From positions 1-51,085 of the forward strand of contig JAAXXR010000009.1 in assembly GCA_013334335.1 (NCBI GenBank): a stretch of DNA of 51,085 bases. The letters are read 5' to 3'. Below, piece by piece: positions 1 to 31,606 of this stretch. Both the position numbers and the translations under genes were made by a program. The stretch comes from Chlorobiaceae bacterium (lineage in GTDB: Bacteria; Bacteroidota; Chlorobiia; Chlorobiales; Chlorobiaceae). The notes beneath the pieces were generated by a model. That model searched no databases. It was given only the letters and a program-made list of their open reading frames with translations, and had not been told where the DNA came from. Positions within the stretch are counted from its first letter, which is position 1; each line of letters begins with the position of its first letter.

Positions 1-87
1 GTTGTAGCCGCAACCGCCGAGCATGACGAAGGCGATCAGGAACGGAACTATTCTTGAGATGTTGCGGATCATGCTTGTCTTCTTCAT
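1..87 (-). CDS. Lipoprotein, N-terminal fragment (cut by window start)
   Basis: The first 29 codons of a minus-strand gene are present; the rest lies outside the window. They encode a basic start (MKKTSMIRN), a hydrophobic stretch and a lipobox LGGC with the lipidated Cys at residue 26, so this is an exported lipoprotein. An AAGGA ribosome binding site lies 8 bases before the ATG at 87, and a promoter-like pair lies at 176-203. The lipobox region resembles that of the lipoprotein at 50145-50648 (both contain MLxGGC or LLGGC), but too little is visible to prove homology. Function unknown. Confidence 0.7.
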   Translation of the reverse strand, partial: MKKTSMIRNISRIVPFLIAFVMLGGCGYN

Positions 88-175
88 GGTTGGTTCCTTC
101 AGGGTTGGTTCACGGGATTCGGGCGACGATACCGGCATAAACCGGCCCGGCACCGATAACGTTCTGTAATGCAAA

Positions 176-203
176 AATATACTACTCGGGACACTCCGTC
201 CAA
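176..203 (-). promoter_or_regulatory. Candidate promoter of the lipoprotein at 1-87
   Basis: On the minus strand TTGGAC (198-203) is followed after 16 bases by TATATT (176-181), a near-consensus -10. This predicts a start near 169 and a leader of about 80 bases. A 6-bp inverted repeat, ACTCCG/CGGAGT (193-198 and 207-212), overlaps the -35 and could be an operator. Prediction from sequence only. Confidence 0.35.
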
Positions 204-295
204 AACCGGAGTTGCCTGCGGTTATTTCTGAAATCCCGTTTCGATTGCTAACTTGGAATGAAGCACCGGCACGGTAACCCCCAAACCCTGTCACC

Positions 296-1135
296 ATGCG
301 CAAAACACCGTTCATCCTCGCGCTGTGCGGGCTCCTGTACGCGGAGCCGCTGCACGCATCGTTCGACTTCCTTCCCGCCGATCCTCGAAGCCTTGGCATG
401 GCCGGAGCGATGACGGCCGTCGCCGGAGATGCCTTCGGTCTTCTGTACAATCCGGCATCGCCCTCGCTCGGCAACGCCAGTGCCGCCGGGGCGGCTGGCA
501 CCCTCCCCTACGGTGATGATGACCTCAGGACCCTCGCCGGAGGCCTGAACTGGCACGGGCCGCTCTTTGACCGCAAGGGCACCCTCTCGGTCGCCGTGAA
601 ACACTACGGTTCGGGAGCCTGGCGCGAAGAGACGCTTTCGGTGGGCTACTCCCGCATTATCCTGGAGAACCGCCTCGGCAAGTTCCATGCCGGCTTATCG
701 CTCTCGCGTCTTTCGTCCGGGGCGGACGAAGGAGAGGAGAGCACGGCGACCGGGGTGAACGCCGGGCTTCAGGCCGAACTCGGAAAGAACATCACGTTCG
801 GCATAAGTTCGTTCAACCTCAATGCGCCGTCGACCGGAACAGAGGACGACCACCTGCCGAGGCCAACCATCGCCGGGTTAGCCATACGACTCAACAACGG
901 CAACCTGCTCACGGCAGACCTGCTGACCGAACCGGGCCGTTCGGCACGCCTCCTTGCCGCGGGCGAGTTCCGGCTCTTCAGGAGTGTCATGATGATAACT
1001 GGCCTGGGCACCAACCCTTCGGTCATCGCGGCCGGGGCGGCGGTCACTGCGGGAAGTTTCAAGGCAACCGCGGCCATCAGCCGCAACATCGACCTCGGGA
1101 CGACCGCCTCGTTCGGGCTGGAGATGAAGCTGTAG
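296..1135 (+). CDS. PorV/PorQ-like outer-membrane beta-barrel protein
   Basis: A 279-residue exported protein. Residues 1-21 form a signal peptide ending at LHA. The mature N-terminus has the motif RSLGMAGAMTAVAGDAFGL followed by YNPA, which is typical of the UPF0164/PorV/PorQ group of FadL-like barrels (usual form GxGGAxxAxxDDxxALYYNPA). The remainder alternates short amphipathic beta-strands with glycine-rich turns, as expected of a barrel, but the last residue is Leu rather than the common Phe. PorV proteins take part in type IX secretion in Bacteroidetes, but no other secretion gene is visible here, so a specific role cannot be assigned. It is a single gene with the convergent rel gene 65 bp downstream. 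The ATG at 296 has no clear Shine-Dalgarno sequence. Confidence 0.7.
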   Translation: MRKTPFILALCGLLYAEPLHASFDFLPADPRSLGMAGAMTAVAGDAFGLLYNPASPSLGNASAAGAAGTLPYGDDDLRTLAGGLNWHGPLFDRKGTLSVAVKHYGSGAWREETLSVGYSRIILENRLGKFHAGLSLSRLSSGADEGEESTATGVNAGLQAELGKNITFGISSFNLNAPSTGTEDDHLPRPTIAGLAIRLNNGNLLTADLLTEPGRSARLLAAGEFRLFRSVMMITGLGTNPSVIAAGAAVTAGSFKATAAISRNIDLGTTASFGLEMKL

Positions 1136-1200
1136 CGGGATGGGCCCTGGGGGTTCAGCCCGGGGACCGAGAGCCGCGCGACAGATACCGACAGGCAGGA

Positions 1201-3393
1201 TCAGCTGGCGATACGCTCGACGGTGAACACCCCCTGCACCTTCCTGAGCTTGTCCATGAGCGTGTTGAGCTTGTCCGTGTTCCTGACGAAAATCATCAGG
1301 TTGCAGAAGAAGATCCCATCCTTGGCGTTCAGGGCGATGCTCCGGATGTTGGTGTCGAATTTCGAGATGACTCCGGTGATCTGGTTGGTCATGCCGATCT
1401 TGTCCTCCCCGACGATCCGGATTCCGGCAAGGAACTCCGTGTCGAGCTTGCGGTTCCAGGCGACCGACACGATCCGCTCGCTTTTGACCAGGTTTTCGTT
1501 GGTGACGTTGATGCAGTTCTTTCGATGGATCTTGACCGCGCCTTCGGTGGTGACGAATCCGATGATGTCGTCGCCCGGCACCGGGTTGCAGCACTTGGCG
1601 TAGGCGTAGGCGATGTTGTTCAGGCCCGAGATGACCACCTCGTCCTTCTGCTCGGAGGGACGCTCCTGCACCTTGCGCGCAATCTCCGCAAAATCCTGCG
1701 GCGCCTTGCCCTGCAGCGACTTCTCGACCGTCTCGGCGGATTTCTGCGGTTTGGTGACGCTTTCGATCACCTCTTCGCTGCTGATCTGCTGGTTGGCCAG
1801 GGCGCTGAACAGGTCGGCGGGAGTCCTGATGCCGTGACGCCTGATCGAGTGGATGGCATCGTTTTCGGTGAACAGCTTCTTGGTGCCCGAAAACATCTTC
1901 TCCCAGATGCCCCGCCCCTTTTCGATCTCCAGGCGGCGCTCTTCGTTGATGGCCGTCCTGATCTTGAGCTTGGCCCGGTGGGTCACGACCATCTTCAACC
2001 AGTCCACTTTCGGTTTCTGGCTTTTCGAAGTGATCACCTCGACGCGGTCGCCGGATTTGAGTTCGGCGTTCAGCCGCACGATCTTGCCGTTGACCTTGGC
2101 CCCGATGCACCCGTTGCCGATTTCGGTGTGGATCGCGTAAGCGAAATCAATCGGGGTGGCGCCGGCCGGAAGGATCTTCATGTGTCCCTTCGGGGTAAAC
2201 ACGTAGATCTCGTCGTGGTAGAGGTTGAGCTTGAACCCCTCCATGAAGGACGCGGCCGTATCGGCGTCCTTGATCAGTTCCCGCGCCCATTTCAGGAACG
2301 AGTCGACCGCCGCGTCGTCCTTCGAGATCTTCTCCTTGTAGCGCCAGTGGGCCGCAACGCCGAGTTCCGCGAATTCGTGCATCCTCCTGGTCCTGATCTG
2401 CAGTTCGATCACGTAGCCCTTCGGGCCGATGATGGCTGAATGCAGCGACTGGTAACCGTTGTGCTTCGGGATCGAGATGTAATCCTTGAAATGCCGGGGT
2501 ATCGGCGGATACTTCTGGGTGATGTAGCCATAGACGGCAAAACAGTCCGACATCTTGTCGGTGTCGATGATCACGCGGATGCCGTAGAGATCGTGGATAT
2601 CCTCAAACTCCTTGTTCTTCAGCCGCATCTTGTTGTAGATGGAGAAAAGATGCTTGGCTCTCCCTTGCACCTCCACCACGAAGCCCTGCTTTTCGAGATC
2701 GTTCTTGATGGGCACGATCATCTTGTTCAGATAGGCGATGCGCTCGTTCCTGCTGAGGCGCACCTTCTTGAGCAGGAAGTCGTACATCTCGGGATCGATG
2801 TACCTCAGCGCCAGGTTCTCCAGGTCGACCTTCATCTTGCCGAGACCAAAACGGTGTGCCAGGGGGGCGTAGATGTCACGCGTTTCGAGGGCCATCTTCA
2901 CCCGTCGGTGCTCAGGCAGCGAATCAAGGGTCCTCATGTTGTGCAGGCGGTCGCAGAACTTGATGAGGATCACCCTGATGTCCTTGACCATGGAGAGGAG
3001 CATCTTCCGGAAACCTTCGGCCTCGGTGGTCTCACGGTTGGTCATGATCTCGGAGATCTTCGTCAGCCCCTCGACAATGTCGGCAACCTCAGTCCCGAGT
3101 TCGGCGACGATATCCTCGTACGTATATCCACTGTCCTCGATCACATCGTGCAGGAGGGCGGCCGCGACCGACACGCCATCCAACGGCAGTTCCGTGACCA
3201 GCAGCTTGGCGACCTCGACCGGATGATAGAAGAATGGCTCTCCAGAGGCACGTTTTTCACCCTCATGCGCCCGGTAACACATGAAGAATGCGCGCTGGAT
3301 GAGCGACTCGTCGTAATTCTTGAGGTTCGCCCGGCACAGCCGGAGAATCTCATGAAGCTTCTGGTAATGTTCCTGTTCTATCTGGGCAAGCAT
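1201..3393 (-). CDS. relA/spoT: Bifunctional (p)ppGpp synthetase/hydrolase Rel
   Basis: A 730-residue long RelA/SpoT homolog that makes and degrades the stringent-response alarmone (p)ppGpp in the cytoplasm. The N-terminal HD hydrolase domain is intact: H43, H57, H82-D83 and E86-D87 in LLHDVIED. The synthetase domain follows (DLYGIRVIIDT, then KDYISIPKHNGYQSLHSAI). TGS (VFTPKGHMKILPAGATPIDF), a Cys-rich segment (AKCCNPVPGDDI to HRKNC) and a C-terminal ACT domain (IRIVGEDKIGMTNQITGV) complete the usual order. The synthetase charge motif reads HFKD where bifunctional enzymes usually have RxKD. The hydrolase motif and the KD pair suggest both activities remain. No second rel gene is visible. It lies upstream of uvrB on the opposite end of a 103-bp gap, with both genes on the minus strand. 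Confidence 0.95.
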   Translation of the reverse strand: MLAQIEQEHYQKLHEILRLCRANLKNYDESLIQRAFFMCYRAHEGEKRASGEPFFYHPVEVAKLLVTELPLDGVSVAAALLHDVIEDSGYTYEDIVAELGTEVADIVEGLTKISEIMTNRETTEAEGFRKMLLSMVKDIRVILIKFCDRLHNMRTLDSLPEHRRVKMALETRDIYAPLAHRFGLGKMKVDLENLALRYIDPEMYDFLLKKVRLSRNERIAYLNKMIVPIKNDLEKQGFVVEVQGRAKHLFSIYNKMRLKNKEFEDIHDLYGIRVIIDTDKMSDCFAVYGYITQKYPPIPRHFKDYISIPKHNGYQSLHSAIIGPKGYVIELQIRTRRMHEFAELGVAAHWRYKEKISKDDAAVDSFLKWARELIKDADTAASFMEGFKLNLYHDEIYVFTPKGHMKILPAGATPIDFAYAIHTEIGNGCIGAKVNGKIVRLNAELKSGDRVEVITSKSQKPKVDWLKMVVTHRAKLKIRTAINEERRLEIEKGRGIWEKMFSGTKKLFTENDAIHSIRRHGIRTPADLFSALANQQISSEEVIESVTKPQKSAETVEKSLQGKAPQDFAEIARKVQERPSEQKDEVVISGLNNIAYAYAKCCNPVPGDDIIGFVTTEGAVKIHRKNCINVTNENLVKSERIVSVAWNRKLDTEFLAGIRIVGEDKIGMTNQITGVISKFDTNIRSIALNAKDGIFFCNLMIFVRNTDKLNTLMDKLRKVQGVFTVERIAS

Positions 3394-3496
3394 ATATATC
3401 CGGTACTCCGCAGAAAAAATGTTGTCGAGGTCCCCGCAACCTCACGCAGACGGGTATAATGGTATATAGGAAATCGCCATCAATCGTCAATACCCG

Positions 3497-5548
3497 TCAA
3501 CCGGGATAGTGGGAGATCTTCTCCTGAAGCATGAAAATTTCGTCGCGAAGGTAGGCCGCCTTCTCGTAATCGGTCCCTTCGGCGGCCGACTGCATCTCCG
3601 AGCTCAGCTCGGCCATCATCTCCAGCATCTCCTCGCGGCTCATGCGGTTGAGCAGCCCCTGAAGCTCGAGCTCCGGCCGCTTCTGCAGGCCGAGACGCTT
3701 GCGACGGTAGCGCTCCTCGGCGTCAGCCACGCTGGTGGTGTTGAGCACCTGATCGACGGACTTGACGATCGAACGCGGTTCGATGCCGTGCTTCAGGTTG
3801 TACTCCTCCTGAACGCGCCGGCGCCGACCGCTCTCGTCGAGCACCCGCCGCATCGAATCGGTGATCCGGTCGGCATAGAACAGCACGGTGCCCTCGACGT
3901 TGCGCGCAGCACGTCCGGCGATCTGCATCAGCGATTTGCCGTCACGCAGGAATCCCTCCTTGTCGGCATCGAGAATGGCCACAAGCGCCACCTCCGGCAG
4001 GTCCAGCCCCTCACGCAGGAGGTTCACCCCGACAAGGACGTCGATCTCCCCGGTGCGCAACTCCCTGAGGATCTGCATGCGCTCGAGGCTCTTGATCTCG
4101 GAATGGAGGTACTGCGACCGGAGGCCCACCTTCCTGAAATAGGCGTGAAGATCTTCGGCCATGCGCTTGGTCAGGGTCATGACCAGCGATTTCTGTCCCT
4201 TGGCAATGCAGGCGCGGATACGGGCAAGCAGGTGGTCGATCTGCCCGGAGACCGGATGCAGTTCGATCATGGGGTCGAGCAGTCCGGTCGGCCGCACGAG
4301 CTGCTCGACGACCACACCGCCTGAGCGCATGAGTTCATGCTCGGAGGGTGTGGCGCTGACGCAGATCACCTGCGGCACCATCTCCTCGAACTCCTCGAAT
4401 CGCAGCGGCCGGTTGTCAAGCGCGGAGGGCAGCCGGAAGCCGTGCTCGACGAGCACGGTCTTCCTCGAACGGTCGCCGCCATACATGCCCCGGATCTGCG
4501 GCAGGGTCACATGGGACTCATCAACGATGACCAGGTAATCTTCCGGGAAGTAGTCCAGGAGGCACCACGGGCGCTCGCCCGCCTGACGACCAGCGATGTG
4601 CCTCGAGTAGTTTTCGATGCCCGAACAGTACCCCAGCTCCTTGATCATCTCGAGGTCGTACCGTGTCCGCTCTTCGAGCCGCTGCGCCTCGACCAGTCGC
4701 TCCTGGCCGCGAAGCTCGTTCAGGCGTGATGCCAGCTCGTTCTCGATGTCGTGCATGGCGCGCTCAAGCTTCTCGCTGTCAGCCACGAACTGCCGCGCCG
4801 GATAGATGAATGCATACTCCTCCTGGCCAATGATCTCGCCGCTCTTCGGATCGAAGGTCTGCAGGCTGTCGACCTCACTGCCGAAAAACTCGACCCGCAG
4901 GGCCAGCTCTTCATGACCGGGAATCAGGTCGATGACATCACCGCGAACGCGGAATCGGCCGGACGACAGGTCCACGTCGTCACGGAAGTAGTGCAACGAC
5001 ACGAGCTTCTGCAGGAATTCGTCACGGTCCAGCTCCATTCCACGGCGCAATTCGACGATCTGGGAGAGCCAATCCTCAGGAGAGCCCAGGCCGTAGATAC
5101 AGCTCACGGAACTGACCACGATCACATCTTTCCGCCCGCTCAAGAGCGCGCTGGTCGCCCTGAGCCTCAGGCGCTCGATCTCGTCGTTGATCTTGAGGTC
5201 TTTGGCGATGTACTTGTCAAGCGAGGGGATATAGGCCTCGGGCTGGTAAAAATCGTAGTAACTGATGAAGTATTCGACCGCGTTGTCAGGAAAGAACTGG
5301 CAGAGTTCGCCATAGAGCTGCGCGGCCAACGTCTTGTTGTGGCTGAGCACCAGCGTCGGCCGGTTGACGGCAGCGATCACGTTGGAGGCCGTGAAGGTCT
5401 TGCCGGATCCAGTGACCCCGAGCAGCGTCTGCCAGCGGTCTCCTGCCAGAACCCCGTCGATCAGCGCCTGTATCGCCCCCGGCTGATCGCCCGTCGGGCT
5501 GTATGGGCTCACCAGCCTGAACTCTCCGCCACCTCTGGATGCCTGCAT
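3497..5548 (-). CDS. uvrB: Excinuclease ABC subunit B
   Basis: UvrB, the damage-verifying helicase-like subunit of nucleotide excision repair, acting with UvrA and UvrC. With the start at the ATG at 5548 the protein has 683 residues, the usual length. It shows a Walker A motif GVTGSGKT (44-51), the beta-hairpin region [12 protein letters not shown] (about 98-109) used for strand separation, a DESH Walker B box in the middle, helicase motifs near the end ([22 protein letters not shown]) and a C-terminal UVR coiled-coil ([12 protein letters not shown]) that contacts UvrC. The reading frame stays open upstream to 5674, but the conserved UvrB N-terminus [17 protein letters not shown] fits the 5548 start. 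Confidence 0.97.
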
Positions 5549-5626
5549 ATTTTGAATAATTGGTGAAGAGTAACGAATGAAAAGTAACGGGTCACGGACC
5601 TGGGCTGCGATAGCCAAAAGCCGTAA

Positions 5627-5658
5627 CAAGAACGAATAACGGTCATTGTTAGTTCTTG
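5627..5658. promoter_or_regulatory. Inverted repeat in the uvrB / M16 divergent region
   Basis: CAAGAAC (5627-5633) and GTTCTTG (5652-5658) form a 7-bp inverted repeat with a further TAAC/GTTA pairing inside. It sits in the 245-bp gap between the divergent uvrB and M16 peptidase genes and could be an operator. No LexA-type box was recognised, so an SOS link for uvrB is not supported. Confidence 0.25.
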
Positions 5659-5793
5659 ACCCTGTCGCCATCATTTAAGGTTACCGGGCCACCGCTTTTT
5701 TCCTGCCGGTTTGCCGGAATTTTCGTAATGTACGATTTTGTATTCGCCCGAGAAGGTGACGATGAATACGATCATTGACCATGAACGCGAACC

Positions 5794-8739
5794 ATGACCG
5801 GACCACTGTTGAAGCCTGCGGGCAGAATGGGCGCCGCACTCGCCCTGGGCATTCTGCTCCTCCATATCATCTCCTGTAAATCCATGACGACAGAACCAGC
5901 ACGTTACCCATACACCACCGTCGCCGGGGACTCCCTGCATACGAGGATCTACAAGCTCAACAACGGCCTGACCGTGTACATGAGCCCCTACCACGACGAA
6001 CCGAGAATCTACACCTCCATCGCCGTCAGGGCCGGAAGCAAGAACGATCCCGCCGAAACCACCGGACTGGCCCACTATCTCGAGCACATGCTCTTCAAGG
6101 GCACCGATTCGATCGGATCGCTCGACTACAAGAAGGAGCATGCCGAACTCGAGAAGATCATCGAACTCTACGAGCAGTACCGCACGACGAACGATCCCGA
6201 GCGCCGGGCGGCCATCTACCGGGACATCGACAGCATCTCGAACGTCGCCGCGCAATACACCGTCCCCAACGAGTACGACAAGCTGCTCAACTCCATCGGC
6301 GCGCGAGGCACGAACGCCTACACCTGGGTCGAGCAGACCGTCTATATCAACGACATCCCCTCGAACGAGCTGGATCGATGGCTGACCATCGAGTCTGAAC
6401 GGTTCCGCAATCCGGTCATGCGCCTGTTCCACACCGAGCTGGAGACGGTCTACGAAGAGAAAAACATGACCATGGACAGCGACAGCCGCAAGCTCTGGGA
6501 AGAGCTGTTCGGCGGACTGTTCCGGAAACACACCTATGGCACGCAGACCACCATCGGCAAGGCGGAACACCTGAAAAAGCCGTCGATCCGCAACGTGATG
6601 AATTACTACCGCACCTGGTACGTGCCGAACAACATGGCTATCTGCATCGCAGGCGATTTCGATCCGGACGAGGCGATCAGCATGATCGACCGGAAGTTCT
6701 CGACACTTCCCGCCCGTGAGGTACCCGAGTTCCACCCCCCGGTTGAACCCCCCATCGTAAAACCGGTGGTCAAGACGGTCACCGGCCCGGAAGCGGAAGA
6801 GCTGGTGCTCGGCTTCAGGTTCGGAGGAGTCAACTCCCACGATGCCGACATGCTGACCATCATCGACAAGATCCTCTTCAACCAGACGGCAGGCCTGATC
6901 GACCTGAACCTGAACCAGCAGCAGAAGGTGCTCGACGCCGGTTCCATGCCGGTGATGATGAAGGATTACTCGACCCACATCCTGAGCGCCAAGCCGAGGG
7001 ACGGCCAGAGCCTCGATGAGGTCAGGAGGCTGCTCCTCGACCAGCTCGACCAGCTCAAGGAGGGAAGATTTCCCGACTGGCTGATCGGCGCCGTGATGAA
7101 CGACCTGAAGCTCGAAGAGCTCAAGCTCTATGAAACCAACCGGGGCCGGTCCGAAGCCTTTGTTGACGCCTTCGTCTGGGGCATGGAGTGGGAACGCCAT
7201 GTGCACCGCTTCGAGAGGCTCGAAAAGATCACCAAACAGGAGGTCATCGATTTCGCTCGCCAACACTACGGCGAGAACTACGTGGCGGTCTACAAGACCA
7301 ACGGCAAGCGCAAGAGCGAAGCCAAGATCCAGAAACCCCCGATCACGCCGATCAAGGTGAACCGCGACCGATCCTCGGCTTTCGCCGAAGAGCTGCTCGC
7401 CAGGAATACCCGCGACGTGAAGCCGTCGTTCATCGATTTCCAGAAGGATATCGCAGTTTTCGATGTCAAACCCGATATCCGCCTGCATTACGTACCGAAC
7501 CGGGAGAACGGCCTCTACAGCCTCTACTTCATCTTCGACACGGGACTGAACCAGAACCGGAAGATCGACACCGCGCTCGATTACCTCTCCTACCTCGGCA
7601 CCTCGAAACTGACGCCCGCCGAGTTCAGCCAGGAGCTCTACCGGCTCGGCGCCGGTTTCTCGGTCTTCACTTCCGAGGAGTATGTCTACCTGAAGCTCAG
7701 CGGCCTCAAGGAGAATTTCACGAAAGCGATCGCACTGCTCGACCAGCTGCTCCGCGATGCGAAACCCGATCCGGCCGCTCTCGAGAAGCTCAAGGACGGC
7801 ATCCGCAAGGAGCGGGCTGACGACAAGCTCTCAAAACGCAGGATCCTGTTCGAGGCCATGGTCAATTACGGCAAATACGGCCCGAAATCGCCGTTCACCA
7901 ACGTCCTGAGCGACAAGGAGATCGAACAGCTCTCCCCACAGGAGCTGCTGGACGAAATCGGAAACCTCATGGGCTATCGGCACCGGGTACTCTACTACGG
8001 TCCGGAGAAGCCGGAGGAGTTGCTCGCGAGCCTTCGAAGCATGAAGCACTTCGAGCGGGAGTTCAGGCCGGTCTCCCAGGCCGAGCTGTTCACCGAGCTC
8101 GAAACCGACCGGAACCAGGTGTTCGTGGTCGATTACGACATGACCCAGGCCGAGATCATCATGCTTTCGAGGGGGGAAGCGTATGAACCTTCCAGGGTAC
8201 CGCTCATCACGCTCTTCAACGAGTATTACGGCGGCGGCATGTCCTCGGTGGTCTTCCAGGAGATGCGCGAGGCCAAGGCGCTCGCCTATTCAGTCTTTTC
8301 GGTTTACCGGCTGCCGAAGGAGAAGCGCCGGCACAGCTACGTCTTCAGCTACATCGGGACCCAGGCGGACAAGCTGCCCGAGGCGCTCGAAGGATTCGAA
8401 GGACTGATGCTGAAACTGCCGGAATCGCCTGAGCTGTTCGCATCGGCCAAGGCCGGCATCGAACAGAAAATCCGCACCGAGCGGCTGACGAAAAGCGAAA
8501 TCCTCTTCGCGTGGGAGGAGGCCCGGAAGCTCGGCCTCGACTACGATATCAGAAAAGATGTGTACCAGAAAACCCCTTCCATGACCTTCGGCGATATCCG
8601 TGAGTTCCATGCAAGCCGCATCAGCAACAAACCGCAGGTCATGCTTGTTCTCGGCAGGAAAAACGAGCTCAACCTCGATATCCTCAGAAAACATGGGGAG
8701 GTGACCTTCCTCACCCTCGAGCAGATCTTCGGATACTGA
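5794..8739 (+). CDS. M16 family zinc peptidase, lipoprotein
   Basis: A 981-residue insulinase/pitrilysin-like protease. The N-terminus has a hydrophobic segment and lipobox IISC (Cys28), so it is probably anchored in a membrane facing the periplasm. The inverted zinc motif HYLEH (His94, Glu97, His98) is intact, and a downstream ELETVYEEK segment (about 215-223) supplies the third ligand Glu. The second half repeats the M16 fold without the zinc motif, as in two-domain M16 enzymes. It probably degrades exported peptides. It leads a plus-strand run with the LptF/LptG permease and the SAM-cleaving enzyme, separated from the next gene by 100 bp that contains an inverted repeat. The ATG at 5794 has no strong ribosome binding site. 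Confidence 0.9.
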
Positions 8740-8784
8740 GCATGCTCAAGAAGGTATCGGCACAGGAACCGGCAGACCCCATCA

Positions 8785-8807
8785 GGAGACCCGGCATGCG
8801 GGTCTCC
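8785..8807 (+). terminator. Hairpin between M16 peptidase and LptF/LptG genes
   Basis: GGAGACCC (8785-8792) pairs perfectly with GGGTCTCC (8800-8807) around a 7-base loop. There is no T-run after it, so it may be a processing site or a partial terminator rather than a full intrinsic terminator. Confidence 0.45.
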
Positions 8808-8839
8808 ACTGAAGGGCCCGTGCGGGGAGCGCGGTGAAG

Positions 8840-9916
8840 ATGAAACTGATCGACCGCTATATCTCGCGGCAGTTCCTTGTCACCTTCCTTTTCTCATCGA
8901 CAAGCTTCGCCGCCCTGTTCGTTCTGATCAACCTGGTTGAGAATCTCGACGATTTCATCGACCACCAGATCTCGACCGGCAATATCGTCCTGTTCTATCT
9001 CAGCGGCCTTCCGGAGACCTTCCTCATGACCACCCCGCTCTCCGTGCTGCTGGCGGCCCTGTTCGTGACCGGAAAACTCTCCATGCAGAACGAGTTGCCC
9101 GCCCTGAAATCGGCCGGTGTGAGCCTGGCCAGGCTGCTGCGGCCGTTCCTGTTCGTCGCCTCCATGATCACGCTCTTCAACCTCGTCAACTCCTGCTGGA
9201 TCGTCCCCGCAACGTACGACTGGTCGAGAGGGTTCGAAAAGCGATACCTGAAAAGCAAGCAGCTTGACGGCGGCGGCACGGTGCACATCCGTGAGTCGAA
9301 AAACAGGATCCTGACCATCGGTCGTGTCGGCAGCGACCTGCTCAGCGGCTCGTCGGTCTCCCTGGAAGAGTTCAACGGATCGCATCTCGTCTCAAGAATC
9401 GACGCCGACTCGGTACGTATCGGCTCATCCTCCAAACAGTGGACGTTCTTCAACGCCAGGCACCGCAACTTCGTTGGCACCACAGAACGGTTCATGGGTA
9501 GGGTCGGCAAGGAGACCATACATCTCTCACTGTCGAAGAACACCTTCAGGATCATCAACGCCGATCCTGACCAGATGAACGTGGGGCAGCTCTTCAGCTT
9601 CATCCGGCAGCAGGAGAAATCCGGCATTTCCGGAACGGAACGGGCAAAGGTCAAACTCAACACCAAGATTGCGCTCCCCTTCGCCAGCGTGATCATCGTC
9701 ATGATCGGGGTCCCGCTCTCCACAAGGAAAAAACGGAGCGGCCTGGCGCTCGAGGCCAGCATAAGCCTGGTCGTGGGCTTTCTCTATCTCGGCATGCTCA
9801 AGGCCCTGAGCGGCATCGGGTACAACGGCCTGATGAATCCAGTGCTGGCGGCATGGCTGCCGAACCTCATCTTCATCGCGGCCGGCGCCGCCCTGTACAA
9901 ATCCGCAAACGATTAG
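8840..9916 (+). CDS. LptF/LptG (YjgP/YjgQ) family permease
   Basis: A 358-residue inner-membrane protein of the YjgP/YjgQ family, which with LptB forms the ABC transporter that extracts lipopolysaccharide from the inner membrane. Hydrophobic segments are at the N-terminus (FLVTFLFSSTSFAALFVLI), around residues 50-70 and 95-115, and three more in the last 90 residues. A soluble periplasmic domain lies between, the typical 3+3 layout. IALPFASVIIVMIGVPLS is a family signature. The preceding in-frame GTG at 8834 is an alternative start 2 codons earlier, and GGAG at 8826-8829 could serve either. Whether it is LptF or LptG cannot be settled from one copy. It lies 4 bp before the SAM hydroxide adenosyltransferase gene. 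Confidence 0.88.
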   Translation: MKLIDRYISRQFLVTFLFSSTSFAALFVLINLVENLDDFIDHQISTGNIVLFYLSGLPETFLMTTPLSVLLAALFVTGKLSMQNELPALKSAGVSLARLLRPFLFVASMITLFNLVNSCWIVPATYDWSRGFEKRYLKSKQLDGGGTVHIRESKNRILTIGRVGSDLLSGSSVSLEEFNGSHLVSRIDADSVRIGSSSKQWTFFNARHRNFVGTTERFMGRVGKETIHLSLSKNTFRIINADPDQMNVGQLFSFIRQQEKSGISGTERAKVKLNTKIALPFASVIIVMIGVPLSTRKKRSGLALEASISLVVGFLYLGMLKALSGIGYNGLMNPVLAAWLPNLIFIAAGAALYKSAND

Positions 9917-29917: not shown

Positions 29918-30333
29918 GGCGTATTCCGGAAAACTCGAACGGAGATAACTTGTTGGGGATGCGCCCCGAAGAACCGCACGACCGCCCCTGCCCCACCGGG
30001 AGGGGCCGCAGAGGAAAAATCATGAGGCACCGTAGGGGCCTCCGGTCATCCGTTGACCGGAGTCATCGCCGATGTGATCAATATCGGCAAGAGTGACAAT
30101 ACGAAAAAAATCACACTGATCGGAGAGAAGAGATCGAACATGCGCCTTAGGGCTCAGGATTCAGGACCGCCAGGTCAGAGCCGATTATACGACAGTCCCC
30201 GCGCACCTCAGTAATATCCTTGGAATAAACCACGTTAATGGTTATCATGATTTAACACCTGCATCATTACGTCTAATGACACTTCATGACAGGTGTATCA
30301 TATACAGTAAAAACAACGATATGGAACACCGCA
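29918..30333. other. Gene-free stretch with a chain of hairpins
   Basis: No convincing gene is visible in these 416 bases. There are four successive hairpins: GGGG/CCCC (29955-29958 with 29964-29967), GCCCCT/AGGGGC (29984-29989 with 30001-30006), a perfect 9-bp stem (30040-30048 with 30054-30062), and an 8-bp stem with one G-T pair (30068-30075 with 30081-30088). The part after 30120 is AT-rich and ends with nested dyads at 30255-30296. It must hold the promoters of the divergent phosphatase and regulator genes and could encode a small structured RNA. Confidence 0.5.
30255..30296 (+). promoter_or_regulatory. Nested inverted repeats before the HTH regulator
   Basis: ACACCTG (30255-30261) pairs with CAGGTGT (30290-30296), and inside it TCATTA (30264-30269) pairs with TAATGA (30274-30279) around CGTC. 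The structure lies 37 bp before the preferred start at 30334 and covers an alternative ATG at 30286. It could be an operator, for example for autoregulation, or an RNA hairpin that blocks initiation. Confidence 0.45.
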
Positions 30334-31554
30334 ATGAAAACCTGCCCATACTCCGGCCTGCCGATTACTGCTAAACCACACTGGAAAGAAGAACAGCCCG
30401 GCTACCTCAAGCGCATTGAACTTGTCGGCAATGACATCTTCCACGCCTTTATCGAGTCAAGGCATCCGGTGATGCTGCAGAACCTGAGCAACAATCTCGT
30501 AAAAACAGTACTCAGGGAAAGTAAAATTCCGGACCAGCCCCTGTACCTCGTCTGGGACATGAGCAACATCAACGACATCTCCTACGACTACAAGCAGGGG
30601 ATCAACGACCTCATCTACCATTGGGGCCCGTCATTTTCTGTGGTCGTGTTCTACAACATCGACCCTTCCTGCCAGATCCTGATCGAGTCGTTCGCCGCCA
30701 TAGCGCCAAACAGCATGACCGTGTTGCTGAGGACAAATTACCGGGATGCGATCGAGACGATCATGGCCTACCGCACGGGAAAGGCCCACACCGAGGAGCT
30801 GGAAGCTCCGCCGGACGACGAGGAAATCGTGCTCAAAAAAGAGTTCCTGGCCGCCGTGGCGAGAATCTCGTGGCTCAACATGCTCAACCACAAGGTGTTC
30901 CTTCCTCCGGCAGGCAACAGGTTCTATCCCTACTTCAAGGCCCTCGAACACATGCAGTGCGACTTGCAGTCGAGGGAAGAGCTTCACGAGAAAGAGATGC
31001 TCCGGCTCAAGAACGACTATGAGCAGCGGATCACCCAGAAAATCATTCTGCTCAACGCACAGATCGAGCTGAACAGGAAAGAGCTGTTGCAGCACGAACA
31101 GGAACGGGCATCCCTCAAATCCAGGATCTCTTCGCAGGAGATGGAACTCACGAGGATTTCAACCGCGATCGGCGAAAAAACAACCGCCCTGCACCAGCTC
31201 CATGAGCAGATCAGGTCCCTGGATATCGACCTGCCGGTCAAGCAGCGCATGATCGACCAGTGCCAGAACATGCTCGAAACGGAGTTGACCGAAAAGCGGC
31301 TCAAAACGGAGCTCACGGCCGGAGACTCCGAGTTCCTCTCGAAGTTGCAGAAAAAACACCCGAACCTCAATCAGCGGGAACTGCGGGTGGGCCTGATGGT
31401 CAAACTGAATTACGACACGAGGGAGGTCGCCCGATCGATCGGCATCTCGACGCGAGGCATGGAGAGTATCCGCTACCGGATGCACAAAAAGCTGAATCTC
31501 GACAAGCACAAGTCGATCAAGACCTACCTTTCCGAACTCGCCGCCGAGCAGTAA
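30334..31554 (+). CDS. Regulator: N-terminal alpha/beta domain, coiled coil, LuxR-like HTH
   Basis: A 406-residue protein that I do not recognise as a known named regulator. Residues about 20-150 form a predicted alpha/beta domain with LYLVWDMSNINDIS (70-83) and SFSVVVFYNIDPSCQILIES, which recalls a STAS/SpoIIAA-like fold, but this is a guess. Residues about 215-320 are a long charged coiled coil, suggesting a dimer. Residues about 330-400 are a LuxR/GerE-type helix-turn-helix of the Bacteroidetes/Chlorobi kind (LNQRELRVGLMVKLNYDTRE, then VARSIGISTRGMESIRYRM). There is no receiver or kinase domain. The start is set at MKTCPYSG, with GGAAC upstream; an ATG 16 codons earlier (30286) is possible but lies inside a dyad. 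It stands alone and is followed by a strong hairpin. Confidence 0.8.
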   Translation: MKTCPYSGLPITAKPHWKEEQPGYLKRIELVGNDIFHAFIESRHPVMLQNLSNNLVKTVLRESKIPDQPLYLVWDMSNINDISYDYKQGINDLIYHWGPSFSVVVFYNIDPSCQILIESFAAIAPNSMTVLLRTNYRDAIETIMAYRTGKAHTEELEAPPDDEEIVLKKEFLAAVARISWLNMLNHKVFLPPAGNRFYPYFKALEHMQCDLQSREELHEKEMLRLKNDYEQRITQKIILLNAQIELNRKELLQHEQERASLKSRISSQEMELTRISTAIGEKTTALHQLHEQIRSLDIDLPVKQRMIDQCQNMLETELTEKRLKTELTAGDSEFLSKLQKKHPNLNQRELRVGLMVKLNYDTREVARSIGISTRGMESIRYRMHKKLNLDKHKSIKTYLSELAAEQ

Positions 31555-31566
31555 CCCTCCTTGCAG

Positions 31567-31606
31567 GCAGATGTCGCCCCGGATTTCAATCCGAGGCGAC
31601 ATCTGC
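31567..31606 (+). terminator. Terminator hairpin after the HTH regulator
   Basis: A perfect 12-bp stem (31567-31578 with 31595-31606) contains an inner 5-bp stem CGGAT/ATCCG (31580-31584 with 31589-31593). It starts 12 bases after the stop codon and lies between convergent genes. No T-run follows on either strand. Confidence 0.65.

Follow-up and report, generated by a model that had tools for sequence, protein, structure and literature searches.

STAS domains are known mostly as anti-sigma factor antagonists, parts of the stressosome and the tails of transporters. The nearest precedent for the regulator described here is CapS, a dimeric repressor described in 2026 in which a STAS domain is joined to a winged helix-turn-helix (HTH); in the literature searched, it was the only case of a STAS domain linked straight to a repressor that binds DNA. 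CapS is reported to recognise palindromic sites in the capK-capS region, with derepression of its own expression; once CapK has phosphorylated a conserved serine in the second helix, the dimer separates and leaves the DNA (PMC13373217). SpoIIAA and RsbS antagonists are small STAS proteins that act on kinases, and for the SpoIIAA-like DUF3478 structures (2q3l and an orthologue) the original description proposes the transport of small nonpolar molecules (PMC2954212).

We examined a gene within a 51,085-nucleotide stretch of DNA (the window) from a member of the Chlorobiaceae. Sequence comparison and structural models show a protein with a predicted STAS-fold input, a long helix and a LuxR/NarL-type HTH. 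As in CapS, an N-terminal STAS fold precedes the DNA-binding domain; that the protein controls the region of its own promoter, as demonstrated for CapS, is proposed here. Whereas CapS has a MarR/ArsR-like winged HTH, an absolutely conserved serine phosphorylated by CapK and an adjacent kinase gene, the protein encoded in the window differs in having a LuxR/NarL-type HTH, a preceding helix of about 100 residues and no conserved phosphosite serine. The literature searched, which was chiefly open-access, contained neither a STAS-LuxR regulator nor a mention of this gene, a statement that concerns the literature searched rather than everything in print.

The regulator gene and its predicted domain layout

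The 406-aa ORF opens at an ATG at position 30334 and, judged by its conservation, is a real gene: it is 39-82% identical to its counterparts at six related loci (Chlorobiaceae/Chlorobium), and internal stops are absent from the best 30 matches of a phylum-wide search. It is single-copy in the window's genome. A longer ORF start at 30286 falls within a conserved dyad upstream of the gene, but relative to the main ATG its frame is 0 in 7/15 genomes, 1 in 4/15 and 2 in 4/15, and two of the seven orthologues that keep the frame contain an early stop. Since the frame from 30286 is not kept, 30334 is the better start, and the ATG inside the dyad was rejected both as the true start and as the start of a leader peptide. 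The features of the gene are as follows.

30334-31554 (stop included), + strand: regulator gene, 406 aa (ORF, related loci and start-frame comparison)
30397-30777, + strand: predicted N-terminal STAS-like domain, residues 22-148 (AlphaFold models; Foldseek and VIA-align matches to SpoIIAA-like proteins)
30583-30594, + strand: Tyr-Asp-Tyr-Lys (residues 84-87), where helix a2 begins and where canonical STAS domains have Ser-Ser-Gly-Leu (gapless register)
30778-30924, + strand: variable linker (residues 149-162), then a conserved short helix and loop (163-197) (model and family alignment)
30925-31218, + strand: one long predicted helix, residues 198-295, its second half coiled-coil-like (model and heptad analysis)
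31231-31311, + strand: second predicted helix, residues 300-326, after an SLDID break (AlphaFold model)
31324-31545, + strand: LuxR/NarL-type HTH, residues 331-404 (model, structure matches and relatives)

Two AlphaFold models, each built from a seven-row alignment, agree with one another (mean pLDDT 82.7 and 81.6; pTM 0.53 and 0.78). Over both, ten-residue pLDDT means in the N-domain are mostly 81-95, with dips to 75 and 67. The first predicts the order b-b-b-b-b-a-b-b-a-b-a-b-a over residues 10-147, with ten-residue means mostly of 84-94 and dips to 76 at residues 61-70 and 67 at 91-100, then a single helix at 198-295 and an HTH inside 329-404. The modelled helix of about 100 residues leading to the HTH had been described in the first-pass annotation as a coiled coil throughout; this now applies to its second half only, since family means give a heptad signal for residues 250-295 (p=0.02) but not for 205-250 (p=0.78) or for 205-295 together (p=0.10).

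The same annotation had spoken of a clear GerE-type HTH. The protein's own match to the GerE Pfam model (PF00196) reaches 13.9 bits, below the cut-off of 23.5, and the HTH and coiled-coil matches in NCBIfam are far under cut-off; the class assignment is nevertheless upheld by relatives that pass the GerE cut-off and by structure matches to the DosR, LiaR, VraR, DegU and NarL domains (VIA-align Z 8.2-9.5), on which the modelled C-terminal domain is a LuxR/NarL-type HTH. It is the most conserved of the five stretches measured, with a mean pairwise identity of 0.73. Scans with Pfam and NCBIfam detected no autoinducer-binding domain and, as already noted in the annotation, no receiver, kinase or known ligand domain.

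The two ends of the protein differ in their taxonomic spread. A 21-row profile of the N-domain matches strongly in 49/55 genomes of the window's own family, comprising 15/15 in the window's genus (g1) and 34/40 in a second genus (g2); in the six other g2 genomes, C-terminal forms are present and the N-domain is absent. Frames with a strong N-domain match are 391-574 aa in length, the exceptions being one of 194 aa (G244) and one copy that is broken (G056). In the remaining 192 phylum genomes there were just two weak matches (E 0.008 and E 0.04), each interrupted by stops. The proposal of similar N-termini on sensor kinases was not borne out in this phylum: across its 247 genomes, strong N-domain matches occur only within the window's family. 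An exact-pattern scan likewise matched in Chlorobiaceae only, the N-domain had no match in plasmids, and in phages the whole protein gave just two weak matches, confined to the HTH. By these searches, the regulator family, which is uncharacterised, is confined within the phylum to a single bacterial family.

A search with the whole protein reaches 156/247 phylum genomes because the output module is more widespread than the input. From outside the family we obtained 23 loci and scanned eight of the encoded proteins with Pfam: TPRs are present in five, Reg_prop is over cut-off in one and Y_Y_Y below cut-off in two, while the GerE cut-off is passed by six, with L065 below it and L068 without a GerE match. 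The TPR and propeller inputs on these relatives imply that other inputs on this output module are usual. The TPR/propeller-type coiled-coil-LuxR-type HTH regulators of the phylum thus share a homologous output module (20-33% identity) but have other input domains, and the window's protein combines a STAS-like input specific to its family with an output module found across the phylum.

Predicted fold of the input domain and the place of the classical phosphoserine

The N-terminal region, from which the words VWDMSNINDIS and VVVFYNIDP had been correctly quoted, had been called vaguely STAS-like, and the predicted fold agrees with this. When the N-domain model was searched with Foldseek, the top match was the SpoIIAA-like DUF3478 protein 2q3l (E 6.6e-4, prob 1.00), followed by anti-sigma antagonists, SpoIIAA, STAS and RsbS chains; with the full-length model 2q3l was again on top, at E 3e-3, and nothing reached E 0.001. 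VIA-align of the N-domain gave Z 10.8 with 2q3l (rmsd 3.0, 115 residues aligned) and Z 10.6 with the SpoIIAA structure 1tid (rmsd 2.7, 112 aligned), and these two are tied as best fold match since the Z difference is below 1. Non-STAS alpha/beta proteins such as the CtpA protease reach Z 8.8 in the same comparison. Taken together, the two models support a STAS/SpoIIAA fold for the N-domain. The SpoIIAA-like DUF3478 proteins (2q3l, 2ook) provide its closest solved fold, but their solved chains have 122-126 residues, are 10-15% identical to it and are without the helix and the HTH; SpoIIAA/RsbS antagonists and stressosome proteins share the fold and the order of its elements (Z 8.2-10.6).

Profile and sequence searches gave no such assignment. 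No Pfam STAS model matches the protein up to E 10 or any of 21 N-domains up to E 1, and no N-terminal Pfam family passes its cut-off in the protein. The PDB sequence search with the whole protein returned coiled-coil matches only, at E of at least 0.05, and the best matches of the N-domain profile in the PDB had E 1 and 1.5. Two candidate families were rejected. DUF7793, which is STAS-like, matched 1/21 N-domains at E 0.074, and hhalign against seven DUF7793 domains gave a probability of 0.2; an EH-domain match on the N-domain (E 0.0078, below cut-off; 3/21 members) has no structural counterpart and was attributed to chance. The remaining Pfam families on the N-domains, DUF4388 included, matched 1/21 members each.

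To place the classical phosphoserine, the N-domain was compared with STAS proteins of its own genome in a gapless register, without superposed coordinates. For two of the three STAS proteins the best register aligns their Asp-Ser-Ser-Gly on Ser83-Tyr84-Asp85-Tyr86, although in this expected register the comparison is not significant (p 0.21 and 0.16), and the third favours another register (p 0.007). The modelled succession of strands and helices fits the register that puts Asp85 at the canonical phosphoserine position. Among 51 full-length rows, a set that includes near-copies and paralogues, Ser or Thr occupies this position in 13/51, whereas Tyr86 is found in 51/51 and Lys87 in 48/51; we counted this contrast in favour of an input other than serine phosphate. 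The canonical STAS proteins of the genome keep Asp-Ser-Ser-Gly, but the conserved phosphoserine of SpoIIAA-type antagonists appears from the aligned residues not to be kept in the window's protein. A shifted phosphosite may exist, for example at the adjacent residue 83, which is Ser or Thr in 41/51 rows.

Such a site is central to an alternative explanation, a switch like that of CapS or SpoIIAA, in which a GHKL kinase would phosphorylate the STAS domain close to where helix a2 begins, at Ser83 or a different residue, with a PP2C phosphatase to reset it. The STAS fold, the frequency of Ser/Thr at residue 83 and the CapS precedent are consistent with this switch, and the genome encodes candidate components, namely one SpoIIE phosphatase (contig C107), two proteins with HATPase_c_2 over cut-off (C107 and C104) and four STAS matches (two on C107, one on C2 and one on C71), three of them with DSSG. 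However, none of these phosphatase, kinase and STAS genes is on the window's contig, C74, from which all seven HATPase_c_2 matches are absent, nor is there a kinase of this kind among the five neighbours scanned, and the canonical position itself is held by Asp85 with Ser/Thr in the minority of rows given above. We consider a partner switch unlikely for this protein. Contig C107 contains, at 3942-9267, a canonical partner-switch set of its own, with the SpoIIE phosphatase, two DSSG STAS proteins and a HATPase_c_2 kinase.

Neighbours, paralogues and free coiled-coil-HTH genes

Upstream of the regulator, on the opposite strand, are genes for a low-molecular-weight phosphatase (LMWPc), a diacylglycerol kinase and a sugar nucleotidyltransferase; downstream, convergent genes encode an aldehyde dehydrogenase (Aldedh) and RsgA. 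Neither a CapK-type kinase nor an immune operon was found among the five neighbouring genes scanned. The first-pass annotation had seen no obvious known partner for this design, and this stands as far as the five neighbours are concerned, but a STAS domain joined to an HTH does have a precedent in CapS. The same neighbours are found at many related loci (loci taken with 1.5-kb flanks can miss them), and since other copies of the family lie elsewhere, the gene order looks like inherited synteny.

The diacylglycerol kinase gene has a bearing on a narrower form of our preferred explanation, in which a small nonpolar molecule would be bound in a pocket of the STAS fold, in line with the proposal for DUF3478 proteins, perhaps at the membrane. 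A DAGK_cat/YegS_C protein is encoded nearby both here and at various related loci, which hints at lipids, and 2q3l is the best fold match, its authors proposing the transport of small nonpolar molecules for it and its orthologue (PMC2954212). Nevertheless, a common fold does not show a common ligand, SpoIIAA matches with a Z difference of less than 1, the neighbours in question are on the other strand and other family copies have different neighbourhoods, which leaves this pocket a doubtful, though not negligible, proposition.

In 13/15 g1 genomes a second copy, 37-45% identical, is located directly upstream of the gene; there is none in the window's genome or in G117. The window seems, by sequence comparison, to retain a leftover of this tandem upstream paralogue, with E 8e-5 in a three-sequence database and E 0.004-0.006 by tblastn:

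30095-30123, + strand: apparent short in-frame remnant of the tandem paralogue, 29 bp, 86% to L043 5367-5395

The second genus, g2, contains free coiled-coil-HTH genes (155-221 aa among those read), and in seven rows such a short gene adjoins the long one:

L006 2979-3494, L007 8645-9145, L037 6068-6583 and L038 7794-8297: short coiled-coil-HTH genes beside the long gene
L039 8614-9243, L040 6685-7188 and L041 5853-6353: short coiled-coil-HTH genes beside the long gene

In L006, a HepT-like/nucleotidyltransferase pair of toxin-antitoxin type (3629-4443) lies between the short regulator and aldehyde dehydrogenase genes, and in L038 a 2552-aa ORF with a Gly/Ser-rich start (51-7709) adjoins the short regulator gene.

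Within the seven rows, the C-terminal part of the long protein is 54-67% identical to L004 and the short protein 83-90%, as compared with 80-93% for the C-terminal part of the 16 long rows that have no short gene beside them. The N-domains, split in the same way, are 40-48% and 32-57% identical, with no pattern of drift. It could be argued from this that in some lineages the long forms have ceded the control of DNA to a separate short coiled-coil-HTH protein, on which they act. However, all seven of the drifted long rows fall into a single clade of the tree, as the seven adjacent short forms fall into another, so that the cases are not independent. Moreover, 15 of the 16 undrifted rows come from searched genomes, and 11 of these 15 have C-terminal-only copies elsewhere, hence the presence of a short copy alone does not track the drift. 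There is no short copy in the window's genome, and a division of labour of this kind, which we judge very improbable in any lineage, cannot be the mode of action here. We give somewhat more credence, while still holding it to be quite unlikely, to a two-piece regulator, in which the STAS long form and the free coiled-coil-HTH short form would pair through their common coiled coil for control in trans, a single long form would do both in the window's genus, and the invariant Tyr86, beside the place of the classical phosphoserine, would mark a STAS switch that does not use serine phosphate.

The leader dyad and a proposed mode of regulation

Two features upstream of the start codon are relevant to how the gene itself may be controlled:

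30220-30248, + strand: promoter-like hexamers TTGGAA-17-TATCAT (TATnAT invariant in 15/15 aligned genus-level orthologues)
30255-30296, + strand: dyad ACACCTG-n28-CAGGTGT, candidate operator or 5' leader hairpin (orthologue conservation)

A promoter scan found one such site with 1.0 expected by chance, so that conservation is the stronger argument for the hexamers. The dyad is situated between the -10 box and the start codon, directly after TATnAT, and is seen across orthologues as CACCTG-n28-30-CAGGTG, with conserved arms that extend further. Both arms match CACCYG/CRGGTG in 13/15 genus-level orthologues, one arm being changed in L013 and L016. The dyad was not found before the g2 orthologues, either in a scan allowing up to two mismatches or by eye, and is thus not a trait of the whole family. 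Within the window's own genome, the arm ACTTCATGACAGGTG is matched exactly just once, at this locus, and at two other sites with two mismatches. Elsewhere in five genomes the arm occurs at 14 sites besides the leaders (13 with two mismatches) versus eight for the reversed pattern; the one-mismatch site is in G063, whose own leader has an inserted base and was unmatched by the arm scan. Loose CACCYG/CRGGTG pairs occur eight more times in the window's genome versus once for the reversed pattern, and by eye the rest of the motif is absent from them.

The position of the dyad right after TATnAT in 13/15 orthologues and the uniqueness of the exact arm were counted in favour of autoregulation, with the dyad as a candidate operator. 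A leader hairpin is the alternative reading, and the dyad could also be a site for another protein. With respect to a hairpin, both arms are altered together in L009, while three single alignment cells break a pair of the outer stem; RNAalifold on the leader gave nine pairs with one both-sided change and a covariation term of -0.16, and the minimum-energy fold of the window's leader is without the outer stem, yet better than shuffles (z -2.6). A separate, strong hairpin of 17 pairs (DNA fold z -6.1) lies at 31567-31606, in the interval that separates the regulator from the convergent aldehyde dehydrogenase gene; it has no T run and is perhaps a two-way terminator. An Rfam search yielded just two far sub-threshold miRNA models, on this downstream hairpin.

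The explanation that we favour as a whole, and consider reasonably probable, is that the gene encodes a one-component regulator with a STAS input, probably dimeric, that represses its own promoter. The protein would work as a dimer held by the long helix and possibly also by the STAS domains. Binding of a small molecule or a protein partner by the STAS domain, independently of phosphorylation on the classical serine, would alter how the helix packs at its top, and the spacing or the grip of the two HTHs would change as a result. The dyad in its own leader would be one regulated site, at which the protein would exert self-repression.

With a single gene copy and one candidate operator, the function of the gene can be tested directly. 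If a STAS domain is indeed wired to a LuxR-type HTH via a long helix, and without the conserved phosphosite, in these phototrophic green sulfur bacteria, the implication would be that this fold can serve as a one-component input more generally.
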